This document shows positions 3,155 through 40,271 of a stretch of 64,000 nucleotides of DNA, piece after piece. The stretch comes from Armatimonadetes bacterium 55-13. GTDB taxonomy: Bacteria > Armatimonadota > Fimbriimonadia > Fimbriimonadales > Fimbriimonadaceae. The notes under the pieces are model-generated. The model saw only the letters and a program-made list of their open reading frames with translations. It did not search any database and was not told where the DNA came from. The DNA lies in contig MKRX01000010.1 of NCBI GenBank assembly GCA_001898035.1, positions 45,513 through 109,512 of the forward strand, in the 5' to 3' direction. The position numbers and the translations under genes are program-made. The first letter of the stretch is position 1; every line of letters begins with the position of its first letter.

Positions 3155-4011
3155 AAACATCCAGGATTCTCTTGACCTTCGTTTCGGCCCTGGCCGTCAC
3201 TTCCGCATTTGCATGGCACGATACCGGCCATATGGTCGTCGCCGCCATCGCGAAGCAATCTCTTACCCCCAAAGCCTTGTCGGAAGCAGAGTGGTTGCTG
3301 AAAATGGATGCCGACCCCAAATCCGACAACTTCGTCACCGCTGCCTGCTGGGCAGACGACGCCAAGACCAAAGAGAGCGGGCCGTGGCACTACATCAACA
3401 TCCACTTCCGAACCGATGATAAGCCCACCTCGAATGAGCCGCTGAAGCAGAACATCGTCTGGGCTATCTCGAAGTTCTCGGAGGTGCTGAGGGACAAGAA
3501 GAGAGATCCTAAGGAACGCGCCGAAGCCCTTCGTTACTTGATCCACTTTGTCGGTGACATTCACCAGCCCCTTCACGCCGTCGCGCGCGATAGCGACGAA
3601 CATCCGGACGGTGACCGTGGTGGGAACGAGTTTAAGATTTCCCCCCCTGAGCGATTTTCAAGGCAAGATCGCCCTCCCACCAACCTGCACTCTCTGTGGG
3701 ATTCCGGCCTCGGACTCTTCAAAAGCGTTCCCCGCCCCTTGACTGACGATGGTCTCGCAACGATCAATCGAACAGCCAATGCAATCAAATCGCGCTTTCC
3801 CGAAATTTCACTTGATGGCGTCAAGCAATCCGACCCAATGGCCTGGGCCCAAGAGAGTGCCGATATCGCCAAACGCTTTGTTTACAAAGACATCACGGAG
3901 GGAACCGTCCCTTCGCCCGAATACATGCGAAAGGGCGAAGACGAATGCGCCAAACGGGTCGCCTATGCGGGTTACAGGCTCGCCGCGCTACTCAATAAGC
4001 TCCTAAATTGA
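3151..4011 (+). CDS. Exported S1/P1-type zinc nuclease
   Basis: S1/P1 nucleases are tri-zinc phosphodiesterases that cut single-stranded DNA and RNA. The signal peptide MKTSRILLTFVSALAVTSAFA is followed immediately by Trp (WHDTGH), which fits the family rule that the mature N-terminal Trp is a zinc ligand. Further ligand motifs are visible: WHY.NIHF near residue 87, FVGDIHQPLHA near 130, and NLHSLWDSG near 182. Length (286) is normal. ATG 3151 overlaps the mazG stop by four bases. An upstream GTG/ATG in the mazG frame region would bury the signal peptide and was rejected. Pairing with MazG suggests nucleotide salvage or housecleaning, but that link is inference. Confidence 0.92.
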   Translation: MKTSRILLTFVSALAVTSAFAWHDTGHMVVAAIAKQSLTPKALSEAEWLLKMDADPKSDNFVTAACWADDAKTKESGPWHYINIHFRTDDKPTSNEPLKQNIVWAISKFSEVLRDKKRDPKERAEALRYLIHFVGDIHQPLHAVARDSDEHPDGDRGGNEFKISPPERFSRQDRPPTNLHSLWDSGLGLFKSVPRPLTDDGLATINRTANAIKSRFPEISLDGVKQSDPMAWAQESADIAKRFVYKDITEGTVPSPEYMRKGEDECAKRVAYAGYRLAALLNKLLN

Positions 4012-4020
4012 GCTTTTTTT
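3997..4020 (+). terminator. Intrinsic terminator after nuclease gene
   Basis: Stem AAGCTC (3997-4002) and GAGCTT (4010-4015) with a seven-base loop, followed by a T-run to 4020. It overlaps the nuclease stop codon and ends the parvulin-mazG-nuclease unit. Confidence 0.75.
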
Positions 4021-4041
4021 CAGCCTGATCGGACCCAAACC

Positions 4042-4068
4042 TAAACTTATTCCATAGTGTGCCGAAGA
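4042..4068 (+). promoter_or_regulatory. Sigma-28 (FliA) type promoter of flagellin
   Basis: TAAA at 4042-4045, 15 bases, then GCCGAAGA at 4061-4068. This matches the established sigma-28 consensus TAAA-N15-GCCGATAA at TAAA, the spacing and GCCGA. It lies 64 bases upstream of the flagellin start and after the preceding terminator, exactly where a class-3 flagellar promoter is expected. Confidence 0.85.
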
Positions 4069-4132
4069 TTTCACATGGAATTTGCGGGGTTTTTTAAAAA
4101 TTCCCGAATTTCGAGGTCAAGGAGTCCGATCA

Positions 4133-5584
4133 GTGAGTCTGAGAATCAACACGAATATTCCGGCGATGCACGCCCTGTCCAATCTGGCAAACACGAATGC
4201 CCAGATGGAAGGGTCGATTGCTCGCCTTAGTTCAGGTCTGCGCATCAATAGCGCAGCCGATGATCCTGCGGGTCTTATCATTAGTGAAGGCATGCGGGCG
4301 CAGATCAAAGGTCTCGACCAGGCTGTCCGCAACTCGCAAGATGCGATCAACATGGCGAAGACCGCGGAAGCGGCGATGGACGAAGTCCAGCGGCTGCTTC
4401 GCGACATTAGAGGTTTGGCCGTTAGCTCTGCAAATACCGCCGTTGCCGATGCATCGGTTCTGCAGGCTAACCAAACCCAGATCCGATCCACCATCGCTTC
4501 GATCAACCGAATTGCTCAACAAACCCAGTTCGGCACGAAGAAGCTACTTGATGGTTCGGCAGGCGCTCTTGCCAACGTAACCTCCACCGCCAATGTGGAC
4601 AGCATCTACATGGGTGGCACCTTCGCCGGCGAGTCAGTTGCCAGCGGCCCCATTACAATCGATCGCGTGTCGCCGGGTTCCGTGGCTACCACCGCTCTGG
4701 GTAAGACATTCGCCACCACTAACACCATTGTTCCAACCGCTGGCTCGTTTGTCATCAACGGCTATTCGTTCACCAGCAGCGGCACCGAAACTTTGGCCAG
4801 CTTGGCGGCCAAGATCAATGAGATGTCCTCCACCACCCACGTGACGGCTCAAATCACGGGTTCGGGTCCCTACGGCATCTCCTTGAGCCAAACCACCTAC
4901 GGTTCACAGCACAGCATCAATTTCTTTGATCCCTCGGGAGTCCTCCACACGTCTTCCGCCGCGTCGGCAACTGGAGCCGATGCCGTGTTCAACGTGTCAG
5001 TAACAACGACCTCGGGCGTTCAGACCACGCTTTTCACCGGTGGGCAGGGCCCCGGCGAATCCGGTCTCAGCCTTTCCGACCGAGAGGGTAACCGAATCGT
5101 CGTGAATCAAAACGGAAACTCGTCCATCGCTGCGCCGACTCAGGTCGGTGTGGTCACCGCAGGCAGCGTGCACTTCCAGATTGGCGCTTTCGCAAACCAA
5201 TCGGTAGCGTTCTCTATGCCCGCCGTATTCGCGCAGAATTTGGGCACAGGCGTGGTGCCAAACGGTTCGATTTCAAGCCTCGACGTCACCACCCAGCAGG
5301 GTTCCTATGACGCGATGAAGATCATCGACGCCGCCATCACCCAACTGGCGCAAGCTCGAGGTGAACTCGGTTCGTTCCAAAAGAACTTCCTAGAGTCCAC
5401 ATCCCGCTCTCTCGGAATCGCCAAGGAGAATTTAACCTCCAGCGAAAGTCAGATCAGAGACGCGGACATGGCTCAGGAAATGACCGAATACACCCGTGTA
5501 CAGATTCTTCAACAGAGCGGCATGGCAGTATTGGCGCAAGCCAACCAACAGCCACAGCAGGTTCTCCAGCTCCTTAAGGGCTAA
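4133..5584 (+). CDS. fliC: Flagellin
   Basis: Flagellar filament protein, 483 residues. The N-terminal D0/D1 region starts SLRINTNIPAMHALSNL and continues with the SSGLRINSAADDPAGL signature near residue 36. The C-terminal D1/D0 region (about 400-483) has LGSFQKNFLEST and ends in QILQQSGMAVLAQANQ...QVLQLLKG. The middle (about 145-385) is a variable Ser/Thr/Gly-rich domain that would be surface exposed. GTG 4133 is chosen because AAGGAG (4119-4124) lies eight bases upstream and the protein then begins exactly where flagellins begin. The earlier in-frame ATG 4082 lies too close behind the promoter. Expression probably depends on FliA and hook completion. No other flagellar gene is in the window. 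Confidence 0.96.
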   Translation: MSLRINTNIPAMHALSNLANTNAQMEGSIARLSSGLRINSAADDPAGLIISEGMRAQIKGLDQAVRNSQDAINMAKTAEAAMDEVQRLLRDIRGLAVSSANTAVADASVLQANQTQIRSTIASINRIAQQTQFGTKKLLDGSAGALANVTSTANVDSIYMGGTFAGESVASGPITIDRVSPGSVATTALGKTFATTNTIVPTAGSFVINGYSFTSSGTETLASLAAKINEMSSTTHVTAQITGSGPYGISLSQTTYGSQHSINFFDPSGVLHTSSAASATGADAVFNVSVTTTSGVQTTLFTGGQGPGESGLSLSDREGNRIVVNQNGNSSIAAPTQVGVVTAGSVHFQIGAFANQSVAFSMPAVFAQNLGTGVVPNGSISSLDVTTQQGSYDAMKIIDAAITQLAQARGELGSFQKNFLESTSRSLGIAKENLTSSESQIRDADMAQEMTEYTRVQILQQSGMAVLAQANQQPQQVLQLLKG

Positions 5585-36743: not shown

Positions 36744-38165
36744 ATGACTCGCAAAACCGCCCTTATTCTTGCGTCGATCGTCGCGCTCGTTCATCTCTTG
36801 CTTGCTTGTTATTACGCGTCCATCACCCCCTACCGAACCCCGGGCATCCTTCTCGGCCAGCGCGGCCCTGATGGGGGGCCAGCCAAGATCCCGGACGTGG
36901 GCGCGCCCGACGAGCGCCAGCATGCCAACTACGTCCTTCACTTGCTAGATGGCAAGGGCTTTCCTGTCCTCGATCCCAAAGACCCCAACTTAGGAGAGAA
37001 CTACCAAAGCCACCAACCACCTCTCTTCTATCTCCTGGAAGCCGGTTGGACCAAGATCACATCCGCCGACATTGAAAGCTCTTCAGATGGCCTCAAAGTA
37101 AGATCGCTCAATGCTCTCATCGGCGCGGTCACCGTCGTTGGAGTCTTCTTTGTGGGACTCTGGGGATTTAAGCGAGAGGATGTCGGTGTAATCGCCGCCA
37201 CCTTCGCGGCACTGCTCCCAATGAACTGCGCCCTCAGCGGCTCCCTCAGTAACGATCCCCTTCTCTATTGCCTCGTAACCTGGACGCTCGCCTTTTGCGC
37301 AAAGGGCATTCGCGAGGGATGGGATCTCAAACTGGCGATCGCCACCGGCGTTGCCACCGGGCTCGCCATCATCACGAAGACCACCGCCGTCGCTCTTCTG
37401 CCCGCCTTGCTTCTCGCGGCCTACCTTTCAAATCCCCGACCGAACGCCAAAACGATCCTCGCCGTTCTCGCACCCACCGTGGTCGTTGCTCTGCCTTGGC
37501 TTCTCAGAAACAAGTCCTTGTATGGCGATTTCTTCGGCATGAGGGCCTTCAACGAAGCATTCGTCAATTCACCCCAGGCATCCACCTTCATCGATGGCTT
37601 CGGCGCTTTTTCCTACTGGACGGACTGGGTCGGTTGGTGGACCGCACGTAGCTTCTTCGGCGCCTTTGGCTACATGGACATCTTTCTCAACGAGCGAGGG
37701 ACTCCTGCCACCGGTCCTCAGGCGCCCAATGCTCTCTACCGTGTTTTGATTGCCCTTATGGTCCTCGCCTTCATAAGTTGGCTGGTCCGTCTCAAGGCAG
37801 ATGAATGGAAGAGTTCGCGTTCCGTACAAGTCTTGCTCGGCGCATTCACGGCCATTGTGCTGGTCCTCTTTGCGCTCTTCAATATGCGCTACTTCCAGGG
37901 ACAGGCTCGCTACGTCTTCCCCGCCATAGCCCCTATTGGCATCGGCGTCGCCATGGGAATCCTGAACGTTGCCCAAAAGAAATGGCGAGTGGGCTGGGGA
38001 GTTCTCACGGCAATACTCCTCGCTCTCAATATCTTCGCGCTCTCTCGGCTCCCCGGCGAGTTTCAGCGCCGCACGGGTCTTTTGTCTCAGAGAATCTTCG
38101 AATCAGAACCGGTTCTCATCCCGTCCTTCTCAGCGAGTAACTGCCGAGACTTGCCTGGCGTCTAA
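36744..38165 (+). CDS. Multi-spanning GT-C-type glycosyltransferase-like membrane protein
   Basis: 473 residues with roughly ten or more TM helices. The first periplasmic loop carries VGAPDERQHANYVLHLL, an Asp-Glu pair typical of GT-C (PMT/ArnT-like, GT39) enzymes, and SHQPPLFYLLEA, also common there. Later segments such as NRCALS-like loops and IITKTTAVALLPALLLAAYL are typical of the family. It would use a polyprenyl-phosphate sugar donor to modify an extracytoplasmic target. Start ATG 36744 has no clear SD. The gene is divergent from the thioredoxin fusion and ends six bases before the sigma factor, so it may be in the same unit. Acceptor unknown. Confidence 0.8.
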   Translation: MTRKTALILASIVALVHLLLACYYASITPYRTPGILLGQRGPDGGPAKIPDVGAPDERQHANYVLHLLDGKGFPVLDPKDPNLGENYQSHQPPLFYLLEAGWTKITSADIESSSDGLKVRSLNALIGAVTVVGVFFVGLWGFKREDVGVIAATFAALLPMNCALSGSLSNDPLLYCLVTWTLAFCAKGIREGWDLKLAIATGVATGLAIITKTTAVALLPALLLAAYLSNPRPNAKTILAVLAPTVVVALPWLLRNKSLYGDFFGMRAFNEAFVNSPQASTFIDGFGAFSYWTDWVGWWTARSFFGAFGYMDIFLNERGTPATGPQAPNALYRVLIALMVLAFISWLVRLKADEWKSSRSVQVLLGAFTAIVLVLFALFNMRYFQGQARYVFPAIAPIGIGVAMGILNVAQKKWRVGWGVLTAILLALNIFALSRLPGEFQRRTGLLSQRIFESEPVLIPSFSASNCRDLPGV

Positions 38166-38171
38166 GGATTA

Positions 38172-38735
38172 TTGTTGTCAGCCGTAATCGAGAAAACACG
38201 GAACGAAGCGTTTGACGAGGACCTCATCCTCGTTGAGCGGCACCTCACCGGAGATGCCGCCGCTTTCGAGTTGATCTACCGCAAATACTATGACAAGGTC
38301 TTTGCCATTGCTCGTGGTGTGTTAATGGACGCTGACGAAGCGGCCGACGCGGTTCAAGAAGTCTTCACGCTGGTATACCGCCACATCTCTCGATTTGACC
38401 GACGCTCCAAGTTCAGCACCTGGCTCTTCCGTATCGCCGTTAACCGGAGCATTCAGGAGGCCAGAAAGCACCGCCACCGTCATCGAAACGTGGAGCTCAC
38501 CGAAGCCGCTGGCAAGGAAGCTCCGGTCGAGACTGAGGAAATGGATCCAAGGGTCCAAGCTTCGTTGGCCCAACTGGCTCCGCAGGACCGCGCCCTGCTT
38601 ACATTGTTCTACTGGGAAGAGCTCAGCCTGAACGAAATCGCCGATAGCATTGGTTGCAACGTGAACGCCGCCAAAACCCGCCTCTATCGAGCCCGCGAGC
38701 GATTCCGATCTCATTATGAGGAGGAAATCTCGTGA
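38172..38735 (+). CDS. ECF-type RNA polymerase sigma factor
   Basis: 187 residues, sigma-70 regions 2 and 4 only. Region 2 contains FELIYRKYYDKVFAIARGVL and DADEAADAVQEVFTLVYRHISRFD (near 30-75), then FSTWLFRIAVNRSIQEARK. Region 4 is LAPQDRALLTLFYWEELSLNEIADSIGCNVNAAKTRLYRARERF. The start is TTG 38172 (or TTG 38175) with AAGGAT upstream. GTGA overlap at the 3' end couples it to the following anti-sigma-like gene, the standard ECF arrangement. The regulon is unknown. No autoregulatory promoter was identified. Confidence 0.95.
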   Translation: MLSAVIEKTRNEAFDEDLILVERHLTGDAAAFELIYRKYYDKVFAIARGVLMDADEAADAVQEVFTLVYRHISRFDRRSKFSTWLFRIAVNRSIQEARKHRHRHRNVELTEAAGKEAPVETEEMDPRVQASLAQLAPQDRALLTLFYWEELSLNEIADSIGCNVNAAKTRLYRARERFRSHYEEEIS

Positions 38736-39493
38736 AGGGCCGAATTCCCGCCGATGTCGAGCGTCTCATGTGGCTCGTCGCCGAAAGCAATGATCCTCAA
38801 GCGATCGCGGATTTCGAACAGCGCTTCCCGGACTTCAGATACGAGCTCGCCCAACGCAGGCGCATGGTTTCGGACCTGAAAGGAGCCAAGACTGGAGGAA
38901 TCGCAAGCGTTCCTATCCCTGCCTTTAAGTTACGGTCTCAGACAAGAACCGCCCCACCGAAACAAGTTTGGATCGCAACCGGATTTGCGTTGGCCGCACT
39001 CGCCGTCGCTTCTTATTCCGTAACCGTCTGGCTTAATTCTGCGCCTTCCAAATTGCCGGCGCCCCCCGTCGTCCAAACGGACACGCCCAAAGCGCCTAAC
39101 TACGTGCAATACAGCCCCTCGCAAGAACAACAGATCCCGCCAAAGGTGGAAACGCCTCCTCAAAACCCCGCCCCAACCCCGGAGCCTGAACCTTCTACTG
39201 CCGATCGCCCCAAGACGGTGAAGATGTCGAATACTTCGCTTGTCGCCGCCCTGAAGATGATCGGGAGCGAAGCGGGCTACAGCGTGGAAATCGCCCCCGG
39301 ATTCCAAGATCAAAAAGTCACCTTGGATTACGAAAACGCCACCACCTCGGAAATCCTCAAGGATCTGGGCATTCAATACACCTTCACTGCTTTCGATCAG
39401 GGAGATGGCACCATCATCATCGTCCCTGCGATAACCGATGGACCAGCCACCACCGGAAGCCCCAACGGCCCCACTCGCCAGATTGGCGGCTAA
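38732..39493 (+). CDS. Probable anti-sigma factor with C-terminal STN-like domain
   Basis: 253 residues. The N-terminal cytoplasmic part (about 1-70, DVERLMWLVAESNDPQAIADFEQRFPDFRYELAQRRRMV) would bind the sigma factor. A single TM lies near 80-100 (VWIATGFALAALAVASYSVTVWL), followed by a Pro-rich spacer. The last 75 residues (SLVAALKMIGSEAGYSVEIA...TLDYENATTSEILKDLG) match the secretin/TonB short N-terminal domain pattern. GTG 38732 overlaps the sigma stop (GTGA). STN domains normally sit at the N-terminus of secretins and TonB receptors, so the periplasmic part may sense or mimic such a partner. Anti-sigma function is inferred from position and topology. Confidence 0.78.
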   Translation: MKGRIPADVERLMWLVAESNDPQAIADFEQRFPDFRYELAQRRRMVSDLKGAKTGGIASVPIPAFKLRSQTRTAPPKQVWIATGFALAALAVASYSVTVWLNSAPSKLPAPPVVQTDTPKAPNYVQYSPSQEQQIPPKVETPPQNPAPTPEPEPSTADRPKTVKMSNTSLVAALKMIGSEAGYSVEIAPGFQDQKVTLDYENATTSEILKDLGIQYTFTAFDQGDGTIIIVPAITDGPATTGSPNGPTRQIGG

Positions 39494-39557: not shown

Positions 39558-40271
39558 ATGCCATCGGTACAACGTAGCTCAGATGTCGTAGAGTCCCACT
39601 CGGAACGCGCCGTGATGTCAGGCATCGCCGGCGTGATCCTCTTGGCCCTGGGAGGGGTCCTGTGGATGTTCCGCGGAGACGGAATGTTCTCCATTCTTTC
39701 CCTGATGCTCATGGCTGGCGGACTCGGCGCCGTAATTTATGCCGCCGTGTGTATCGCTCAGGCGCGCAAGGTTACTTGCTTCAAAATTGAGTGTCCCTAC
39801 TGTCACTCCGCCGTCAGCCTCCTAACTGCGCCGGATCGTGACGTCTCCTGCCGGTCCTGCCTCCGAATGATTCCCATCGTGGACGGTAAGCCTATCGCGG
39901 TAACTCAGGTCAGGTGTGGTTATTGCAATGCACTCAACTATTACAGCGATAAAACCATCGTTCTCCTCTGCGAGGAATGTAATCACGAAATTCCCATATC
40001 CCGAGCCGACGGCCAAGTCGCGCACTCCAGGTTCGCCGTAGTCGATGATGAGCGCTTTTATGAACTCAAGCTCGTCGGATTCGAGCATCCAACCGAAGAT
40101 CTCCTCTCGACTCTCCAGCAAGCCCTTGCCCTCAATCGCAACCAAGTTAAAGATATGCTTGGCGAGTTGCCCGTCACTCTTCTCTCCGGAATCCCGAAGA
40201 AGAAAGCTGAAATGCTCACGGCGCAATTGAACTTGCACGGCGCTAGCTGTCAGTTCTATCCGCTGAACTAG
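39558..40271 (+). CDS. Membrane protein with two zinc ribbons and an L7/L12-like C-terminal domain
   Basis: 237 residues. Two TM segments (MSGIAGVILLALGGVLW and ILSLMLMAGGLGAVIYAAVCIAQ) lie near the N-terminus. Two zinc-ribbon-like units follow: ECPYC...CRSC near 78-100 and RCGYC...CEEC near 118-140. The last 50 residues (NQVKDMLGELPVTLLSGIPKKKAEMLTAQLNLHGASCQF) look like the C-terminal domain of ribosomal L7/L12, in which a VKxxVxxLP...ikeGvsKeeAexikxxLexaGAxV pattern is conserved. GGGAGG lies upstream of ATG 39558. Such zinc-ribbon/L12-like proteins may tether a complex at the membrane. Function unknown. Confidence 0.85.
   Translation: MPSVQRSSDVVESHSERAVMSGIAGVILLALGGVLWMFRGDGMFSILSLMLMAGGLGAVIYAAVCIAQARKVTCFKIECPYCHSAVSLLTAPDRDVSCRSCLRMIPIVDGKPIAVTQVRCGYCNALNYYSDKTIVLLCEECNHEIPISRADGQVAHSRFAVVDDERFYELKLVGFEHPTEDLLSTLQQALALNRNQVKDMLGELPVTLLSGIPKKKAEMLTAQLNLHGASCQFYPLN

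Follow-up and report, generated by a model that had tools for sequence, protein, structure and literature searches.

Positions 38172 to 39493 of the window (the whole stretch of 64,000 nucleotides that was analysed, from Armatimonadetes bacterium 55-13; source genome G000, 4.5 Mb in 27 contigs) encode an ECF sigma factor and, overlapping it, a membrane protein that ends in an STN-like domain. The questions raised by this locus are whether the second protein can be regarded as an anti-sigma factor, whether its last domain is an STN domain, and which partner such a domain would contact. The features of the locus are as follows.

36744 to 38165, + strand: upstream neighbour, a membrane glycosyltransferase-like gene (PMT_2, E 9.8e-11), ending 6 bp before the sigma gene
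38137 to 38141, + strand: -35 element GTAAC, inside the 3' end of the upstream gene
38159 to 38162, + strand: -10 element CGTC, 17 nt after GTAAC and 9 nt before the TTG start at 38172
38172 to 38735, + strand: ECF sigma factor gene, 187 aa, TTG start (Pfam and NCBIfam)
38274 to 38477, + strand: sigma region 2 (Sigma70_r2, Pfam E 3.8e-17, above cut-off)
38553 to 38702, + strand: sigma region 4 (Sigma70_r4_2, Pfam E 5.2e-13, above cut-off)
38732 to 39493, + strand: anti-sigma-type protein gene, 253 aa, GTG start inside the sigma stop, 4-bp overlap with the sigma gene
38750 to 38890, + strand: N-terminal three-helix bundle, residues 7-53, putative anti-sigma domain (AF2 pLDDT about 90; conservation)
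38972 to 39037, + strand: predicted single transmembrane helix, model residues 81-102 (hydropathy; AF2 at low confidence)
39038 to 39193, + strand: predicted disordered Pro/Gln/Ser/Thr-rich tether, residues 103-154 (pLDDT mostly <50; composition)
39194 to 39436, + strand: predicted STN-fold domain, residues 155-235 (AF2 pLDDT about 90; Foldseek, VIA and profile-profile comparison)
39558 to 40271, + strand: downstream neighbour, a zinc-ribbon-type membrane protein (weak Pfam matches)

The earlier note had called the first gene an ECF sigma factor, and this was borne out by the recognition of both region 2 and region 4 by Pfam and by a match of the product to NCBIfam TIGR02937 (E 1.3e-26). A contig scan with the single anti-sigma-type protein found no relatives, and the alignment of all 40 homologues was too variable for such a scan; the sigma alignment was scanned instead. 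The sigma alignment and the promoter set exclude L001, which is the window's own gene, and L023 and L032, where the contig end cuts the sigma gene. Among named records found in this way, the six with the closest sigma (57-66% identity) are Fimbriimonadaceae and Armatimonadetes MAGs (L065-L070), and the gene order around the pair agrees in L066 and other relatives. A gene of the downstream neighbour's type lies 3' of the anti-sigma-type gene in 13 of 20 loci; in the window its product weakly matches the C-terminal domain of ribosomal L7/L12 (E 0.0046).

The anti-sigma-type protein was found in 41 of the 61 genomes searched, source genome included (E <= 5.4e-13; G047, with a weak partial match, was left out of the 41), and is therefore not a chance open reading frame. 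With a profile of 40 members, 87 of 113 genomes of the class matched at E <= 5.2e-31, N-terminal part included. The full-length protein is present in 81 of 85 genomes of family f1 and 6 of 8 of family f5 and in 0 of 20 of families f2-f4, where the same profile gave partial, STN-type matches only. Within its lineage the gene appears to belong to the single-copy core. A sigma open reading frame (E <= 2.8e-43) lies directly 5' of the homologue in 40 of 40 loci read, which represent all anti-bearing genomes except G011, and the two genes overlap by 4 bp in 31 of the 40 when the start nearest the sigma stop is chosen by script.

The second protein is termed a putative anti-sigma factor from its operon, its topology and weak NCBIfam matches, and not from a fold match. 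The matches are to NF052375 ('anti-sigma factor'; 5 of 40 members, best E 6.3e-4, weak) and NF010501 (4 of 40, best E 0.0018, weak); both are anti-sigma models, and they match more members than the other NCBIfam models do. Within the N-terminal stretch of about 50 residues, W14 and P33 are invariant in all 40 members, and the HxxxCxxC zinc motif is absent from the first 70 residues of each. No meaningful sequence or structure match to an anti-sigma fold was obtained for this domain (a second look by structure gave Z < 5 only), and profile-profile comparison with a zinc anti-sigma profile, built from 28 sequences of which one is a wrongly picked frame (L256), indicated no relation (Probab 1.55). 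The class I anti-sigma domain (ASDI) is described in PMC7406223 as a three-helix bundle plus a fourth helix; by comparison, the AF2 model of the N-terminal domain here, built with six sequences, has three helices and no fourth cytoplasmic helix. A hydrophobic segment near residues 75-100 and a Pro/Gln/Ser/Thr-rich stretch past it occur in all 40 members. An F/Y-x-P motif in the cytoplasmic linker was dropped as a family feature, being kept in 23 of 40 members only.

For the C-terminal domain, searches with the single protein against Pfam (none at E <= 10), NCBIfam and PDB sequences gave nothing useful, so that the HMM match to STN proposed in the earlier note failed for the single sequence and was recovered in part among the homologues, where PF07660 (STN) is the Pfam family that matches most members (4 of 40, best E 0.0032, below the curated cut-off). 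As the curated score is not reached, the domain is classed as an STN-fold relative and not as a PF07660 entry. In the AF2 model residues 155-235 follow the order beta-alpha-beta-beta-alpha-beta-beta. The top Foldseek match is the N0 domain of PilQ (4ar0; E 7.5e-4, the sole one <0.001), followed by GspD N0 (1.9e-3), the anti-sigma BDI_1681 (1.1e-2), and PupR (3.8e-2). VIA superposition gave Z 11.4 for EscC, 10.8 for BDI_1681 (4m0n; 1.7 A over 73), and 9.8 for PupR (6ovk; 2.2 A over 73), and phage and contractile-injection baseplate domains score in the same Z range (9.8-11.4), so the fold alone does not reveal function. Profile-profile comparison, using an STN profile (A5) that leaves out L033, L035-L038, and L040 with their long insert, gave Probab 96.1 against five Pfam-placed STN domains (three secretins, one pil-operon STN protein, and one M56 peptidase) and 98.7 against 18 free STN domains, a value that is partly built in because these domains were located with the same profile; unrelated profiles gave 0.07-1.06. 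Among the homologues, one matches the type III secretin (SctC) in NCBIfam at 9.4e-6 and two match the PilN-family secretin (best 5.9e-4), and a PDB profile search is headed by five PilQ and GspD/XcpQ sequences, which at E 0.04-0.21 are not significant by themselves. Predicted structure and profiles thus agree that the last ~80 residues adopt an STN fold, and the STN-like module that the earlier note had placed at the periplasmic end of the protein stands.

The premise of the same note that STN domains belong to the receptor or secretin side is outdated, as the anti-sigma factors PupR and FoxR (PMC7186176, PMC11637429), as described there, and BDI_1681 (PDB 4m0h/4m0n, titled putative anti-sigma factor) carry the fold too. 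An anti-sigma factor with a C-terminal STN domain is already known and is not new. In PupR, the periplasmic part is described as consisting of a juxtamembrane beta-solenoid and, after it, an STN subdomain that forms the extreme C-terminus, an arrangement called previously unobserved in 2020, and binding of the PupB signalling domain is reported to have required both subdomains (PMC7186176). FoxR has been modelled with a PupR-like build, and the receptor was proposed to shield FoxR from proteolysis (PMC11637429). The protein studied here resembles both in having an N-terminal cytoplasmic domain, one predicted transmembrane helix, and the STN domain at the extreme C-terminus. It differs from them in that a Pro-rich tether replaces the juxtamembrane beta-solenoid (CJM), which is absent from the AF2 model, where residues 103-154 are disordered; in that no FecR or FecR_C Pfam match was found in 40 members at E <= 1; and in that a TonB-dependent transducer is not nearby and is mostly absent from the genome. 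Because beta-solenoid and transducer were both looked for and neither was found as in those systems, the protein is not classed as a FecR/PupR member. Secretins such as PilQ, GspD, and EscC share the domain fold with weak sequence-profile similarity; they carry it N-terminally, on the periplasmic side of a ring protein of the outer membrane, whereas here it forms the C-terminus of an inner-membrane anti-sigma protein. Literature searches on Armatimonad ECF/anti-sigma systems or cell-surface signaling found none, and a search with anti-sigma alone returned papers unrelated by title.

ECF sigma factors commonly, though not obligatorily, read an AAC/CGT-type promoter of their own. The upstream gene's stop codon directly follows CGTC in the window. 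Of 38 regions upstream of the sigma gene (the window and 37 loci, which are kin and not independent, though mostly from different genera), 30 score at least 9 of 10 against GGTAAC-N-CGTC, compared with 1.3% of shuffled regions. The exact pair GTAAC-N18-CGTC occurs in 12 of the 38, and any pair reached at most 4 in ten shuffles, which preserved base composition only. The occurrence of GTAAC-N16-18-CGTC before the sigma gene is strong sequence-level evidence that the sigma factor is autoregulated and reads the promoter of its own operon. The distance from CGTC to the start codon is 8-14 nt in 34 of 38 regions; given the usual transcription start, almost no leader would remain, which suggests that the transcript is leaderless or nearly so, or else that the RNA of the upstream gene is used. 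A purine stretch lies between the -10 element and the sigma start (38159-38177 in the window, and in 37 relatives).

Beyond the operon, the whole source genome has two sites of the strict pattern GTAAC-N17-18-CGTCNAA, one before the sigma gene and one 8 nt before the gene for a 306-aa protein. When 2.06 Mb of this genome was scanned for GTAAC-N16-18-CGTC, 4 of 41 sites had a start codon 6-14 nt downstream; for 40 permuted motifs the figure was 13 of 1816 (Fisher p 4e-4, or 0.004 when the sigma site is left out). The four sites so placed precede the genes for the sigma factor, the 306-aa protein, a PrcB_C-domain protein (E 7.8e-6), and a 598-aa protein in which PPC is seen below cut-off. The three non-sigma genes, each with the promoter 8-10 nt before the start codon, are as follows.

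L310, 12272 to 12874: promoter-bearing gene
L272, 2925 to 3842, - strand: promoter-bearing gene
L336, 14868 to 16661, - strand: promoter-bearing gene

By eye, all three products have signal-peptide-like starts, and we hold with moderate confidence that the sigma factor also reads a few genes for exported proteins. In a scan of 16 genomes, sites of the strict pattern were not in excess (28 sites, 8 of them sigma promoters, against 31 in a reversed control), so the regulon beyond the sigma gene is small or varies between species. A large regulon is not claimed; GGTAAC-N16-18-CGTC gave 30 sites in the source genome and 19 in the reversed control, mostly inside long frames.

The partner of the STN domain was sought among the neighbouring genes. 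In 6 of 20 loci with ~8 kb flanks (genomes G013, G018, G015, G033, G025, and G008), and also in the MAG locus L067, a gene for a 720-790-aa protein headed by an STN domain ends ~26-70 bp before the sigma gene. No further adjacent gene of this kind was seen in the remaining 20 loci, for some of which the upstream sequence is short, and in the window the sigma gene is directly preceded by the PMT_2 gene and not by an STN-headed one. The STN-headed proteins begin signal-peptide-like by eye. Their N-terminal ~75 residues match the STN profile of the anti-sigma-type protein at Probab 92.5 (94.6 with the own-genome homologues added), the free STN domains at 97.2, the Pfam-placed STN set at 93-94, and unrelated profiles at <0.3; as they are closer to the free STN domains than to that of the anti-sigma-type protein, no special kinship is claimed. 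Pfam gives no clear match for the C-terminal ~600 residues, and a sensing function for this part is a guess. The family as a whole has ~650-790 aa and comprises L332 and L362 in the source genome and L151, L153, L157, L158, L160, L166, L067, and L227 in relatives. The two own-genome homologues (E 6.4e-122 and 7.9e-36, with ~44% of the genome read) are as follows.

C5, 40866 to 43127 (= L332, 866 to 3127), - strand: STN-headed homologue (profile/homology match)
C26, 4401 to 6392 (= L362, 4401 to 6392), + strand: STN-headed homologue (profile/homology match)

The promoter is absent from the 400 bp upstream of both. The member in L227 is a further homologue elsewhere in G006; a strict-pattern site inside its gene was taken as chance. 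The nearest parallel is VreA-VreI-VreR (PUMA3) of Pseudomonas aeruginosa, in which a barrel-less exported STN protein is described as encoded with an ECF sigma and an anti-sigma factor (PMC2729926). According to the same source, VreA is small with a TolA/TonB-like C-terminal domain (PMC2729926), whereas the proteins here have ~720-790 aa with no clear Pfam match. A TolA/TonB-like C-terminal Pfam match was found neither in 7 relatives (E <= 1) nor in the 2 own homologues (E <= 0.1), and unlike in VreAIR the STN-protein gene is adjacent in only some of the genomes.

The reading favoured here, to which we give a probability of about 0.5, is that the locus encodes an autoregulated ECF sigma/membrane anti-sigma pair for cell-surface signalling by contact between STN domains, mostly without a TonB receptor. 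The N-terminal three-helix bundle would keep the sigma factor at the inner membrane, and the transmembrane helix and the ~50-residue disordered tether are predicted to place the STN domain in the periplasm. For partner and signal of this domain we infer the following: an exported ~750-aa protein, for which adjacency and homology are observed, would occupy it with an N-terminal STN domain of its own, and a change in the exported protein would alter the STN-STN contact and open the anti-sigma factor to stepwise proteolysis, by analogy with PupR and FoxR. The freed sigma factor would then read GTAAC-N16-18-CGTC, with strong evidence for its own operon and moderate evidence for a few genes of exported proteins. 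Counted against this reading are the minority of wide loci in which the STN-headed gene adjoins the sigma gene and the ability of STN domains to form pairs among themselves or with secretins as well. The system is conserved and apparently single-copy; by retaining the STN domain of the anti-sigma factor and doing without the beta-solenoid and, in most genomes, the TonB receptors, it may indicate which part is essential, and it supplies concrete candidate partners of an STN anti-sigma factor.

The earlier note had suggested that the domain may bind a secretin or a ligand of its own and report export or pilus state. Docking of the STN domain on the N0 ring of a secretin such as PilQ, with assembly or export state as the signal, would agree with the secretin N0 domains that lead both the fold matches and the PDB profile search. 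Secretins were found in 41 of 41 anti-bearing genomes, and three secretin-less relatives (G030, G052, and G054) lack the anti-sigma-type protein too. This co-occurrence over 61 genomes looked promising and was broken by G092, which has secretins and no anti-sigma-type protein, and by families f2-f4; 17 of 20 genomes without the protein have secretins, and the genomes in which secretins are missing are themselves reduced or incomplete. A profile of five secretins, with which an untrained partial secretin as control scored 6.6e-8, gave no match in the window or within ~8 kb at 20 loci, and the one promoter-like match in the pil operon sits inside a coding frame. Beyond the shared fold nothing was found for a secretin partner, which we regard as improbable, and the STN-headed exported protein is the better-placed candidate from gene order and homology.

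Equally improbable as the partner is a double-STN protein that occurs throughout the class and is usually paired with a zinc-type (HxxxCxxC) anti-sigma-like protein. By profile its domains are the nearest STN relatives of the anti-sigma domain (the 98.7 given above, for domains located with the same profile), the own-genome member matches at E 6.6e-10, and in a Chthonomonadaceae operon such a protein is encoded with a sigma and an anti-sigma factor. Against this, such proteins are present in families without the STN anti-sigma factor, and a membrane partner gene of their own adjoins in the source genome and in the two f2 loci inspected by hand. The pair in the source genome (contig C15) is as follows.

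L271, 3743 to 4780: zinc-type (HxxxCxxC) membrane protein
L271, 4804 to 5499: double-STN protein with a signal-peptide-like start

The STN domain could also be a self-contained sensor, in which self-pairing or the binding of a ligand from the envelope would set off proteolysis and no dedicated partner protein would be needed. The absence of an adjacent STN-headed gene from 14 of 20 wide loci would fit, as would the statement in PMC11637429 that STN domains interact mutually; we nevertheless consider it a small chance, as it leaves the recurrent STN-protein gene directly before the sigma gene unexplained. Classical cell-surface signalling with a TonB-dependent transducer, by which PupR and FoxR operate and for which the source genome has one TonB-receptor barrel match, is very improbable here and unlikely as a general mechanism, given that 30 of 41 anti-bearing genomes have no barrel match (26 of the 35 that are >=90% complete), that the nearest barrel on the contig of the anti-sigma-type gene among the 11 genomes with both is ~88 kb off (G019), and that the FecR/FecR_C matches and the beta-solenoid are missing.

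A related arrangement is found elsewhere in the phylum. In Chthonomonadaceae the locus L071 has an ECF sigma gene, then a gene with HxxxCxxC and a hydrophobic segment, then a double-STN-like protein with a signal-peptide-like start; Pfam sees no STN in the last and zf-HC2 only weakly in its neighbour (E 0.44). The set resembles the pair in the window in that ECF sigma, one-TM anti-sigma-type protein, and STN module are encoded together, and differs in that the STN module is a separate secreted protein and the anti-sigma factor carries HxxxCxxC. The double-STN protein is found in 16 of 17 Chthonomonadaceae genomes, and in the flanks read for these 16 it is accompanied by the sigma gene 11 times and by the zinc-type anti-sigma gene 12 times, on the same strand and in the same order; the exceptions are three loci cut by a contig start, one cut by the flank limit, and one weak match without such neighbours. 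The order sigma, zinc-type anti-sigma-like, double-STN was seen in L071, L175, L177-L179, L182-L186, and L189. In sister family f2 and in the source genome a zinc-type membrane protein precedes the double-STN protein, and the stretch read there contains no sigma gene. In this phylum, then, STN modules recur together with anti-sigma-type proteins, in the window as a part of the anti-sigma-type protein itself.

The known cases of an outer-envelope transducer pairing with an anti-sigma factor through STN domains come mainly from iron uptake, a setting in which the TonB receptor is dominant. For the Armatimonadota it can be proposed tentatively, at somewhat less than even odds, that cell-surface signalling is free of TonB receptors: a new family of exported STN-headed proteins, and in sister lineages the free double-STN proteins, would serve interchangeably as periplasmic transducers that dock on anti-sigma factors by STN-STN pairing, and in Fimbriimonadia the STN domain would have become a part of the anti-sigma factor itself. 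An STN protein beside the anti-sigma gene in one lineage and a fused STN domain in another would suggest an origin of the PupR-type architecture.

Some further observations concern STN modules at other loci. The STN protein of the f2 locus L256 has a zinc ribbon at its end and no signal peptide by eye. In one free STN protein of the source genome, STN (1.6e-7) and FecR_C (2e-5) both score above their Pfam cut-offs. The locus L109 encodes a different Fimbriimonadaceae ECF sigma factor (4001-4585) followed by a membrane protein gene (4610-5458), in whose product the last ~65 residues are STN-like by eye, while Pfam finds no STN. In the source genome, contig C1 near 131.5 kb (L043, 1219-3132, - strand) encodes a BlaR1-type M56 peptidase (E 7e-35) with two STN matches (E 5.1e-12), possibly a membrane sensor-protease that shares the STN module.
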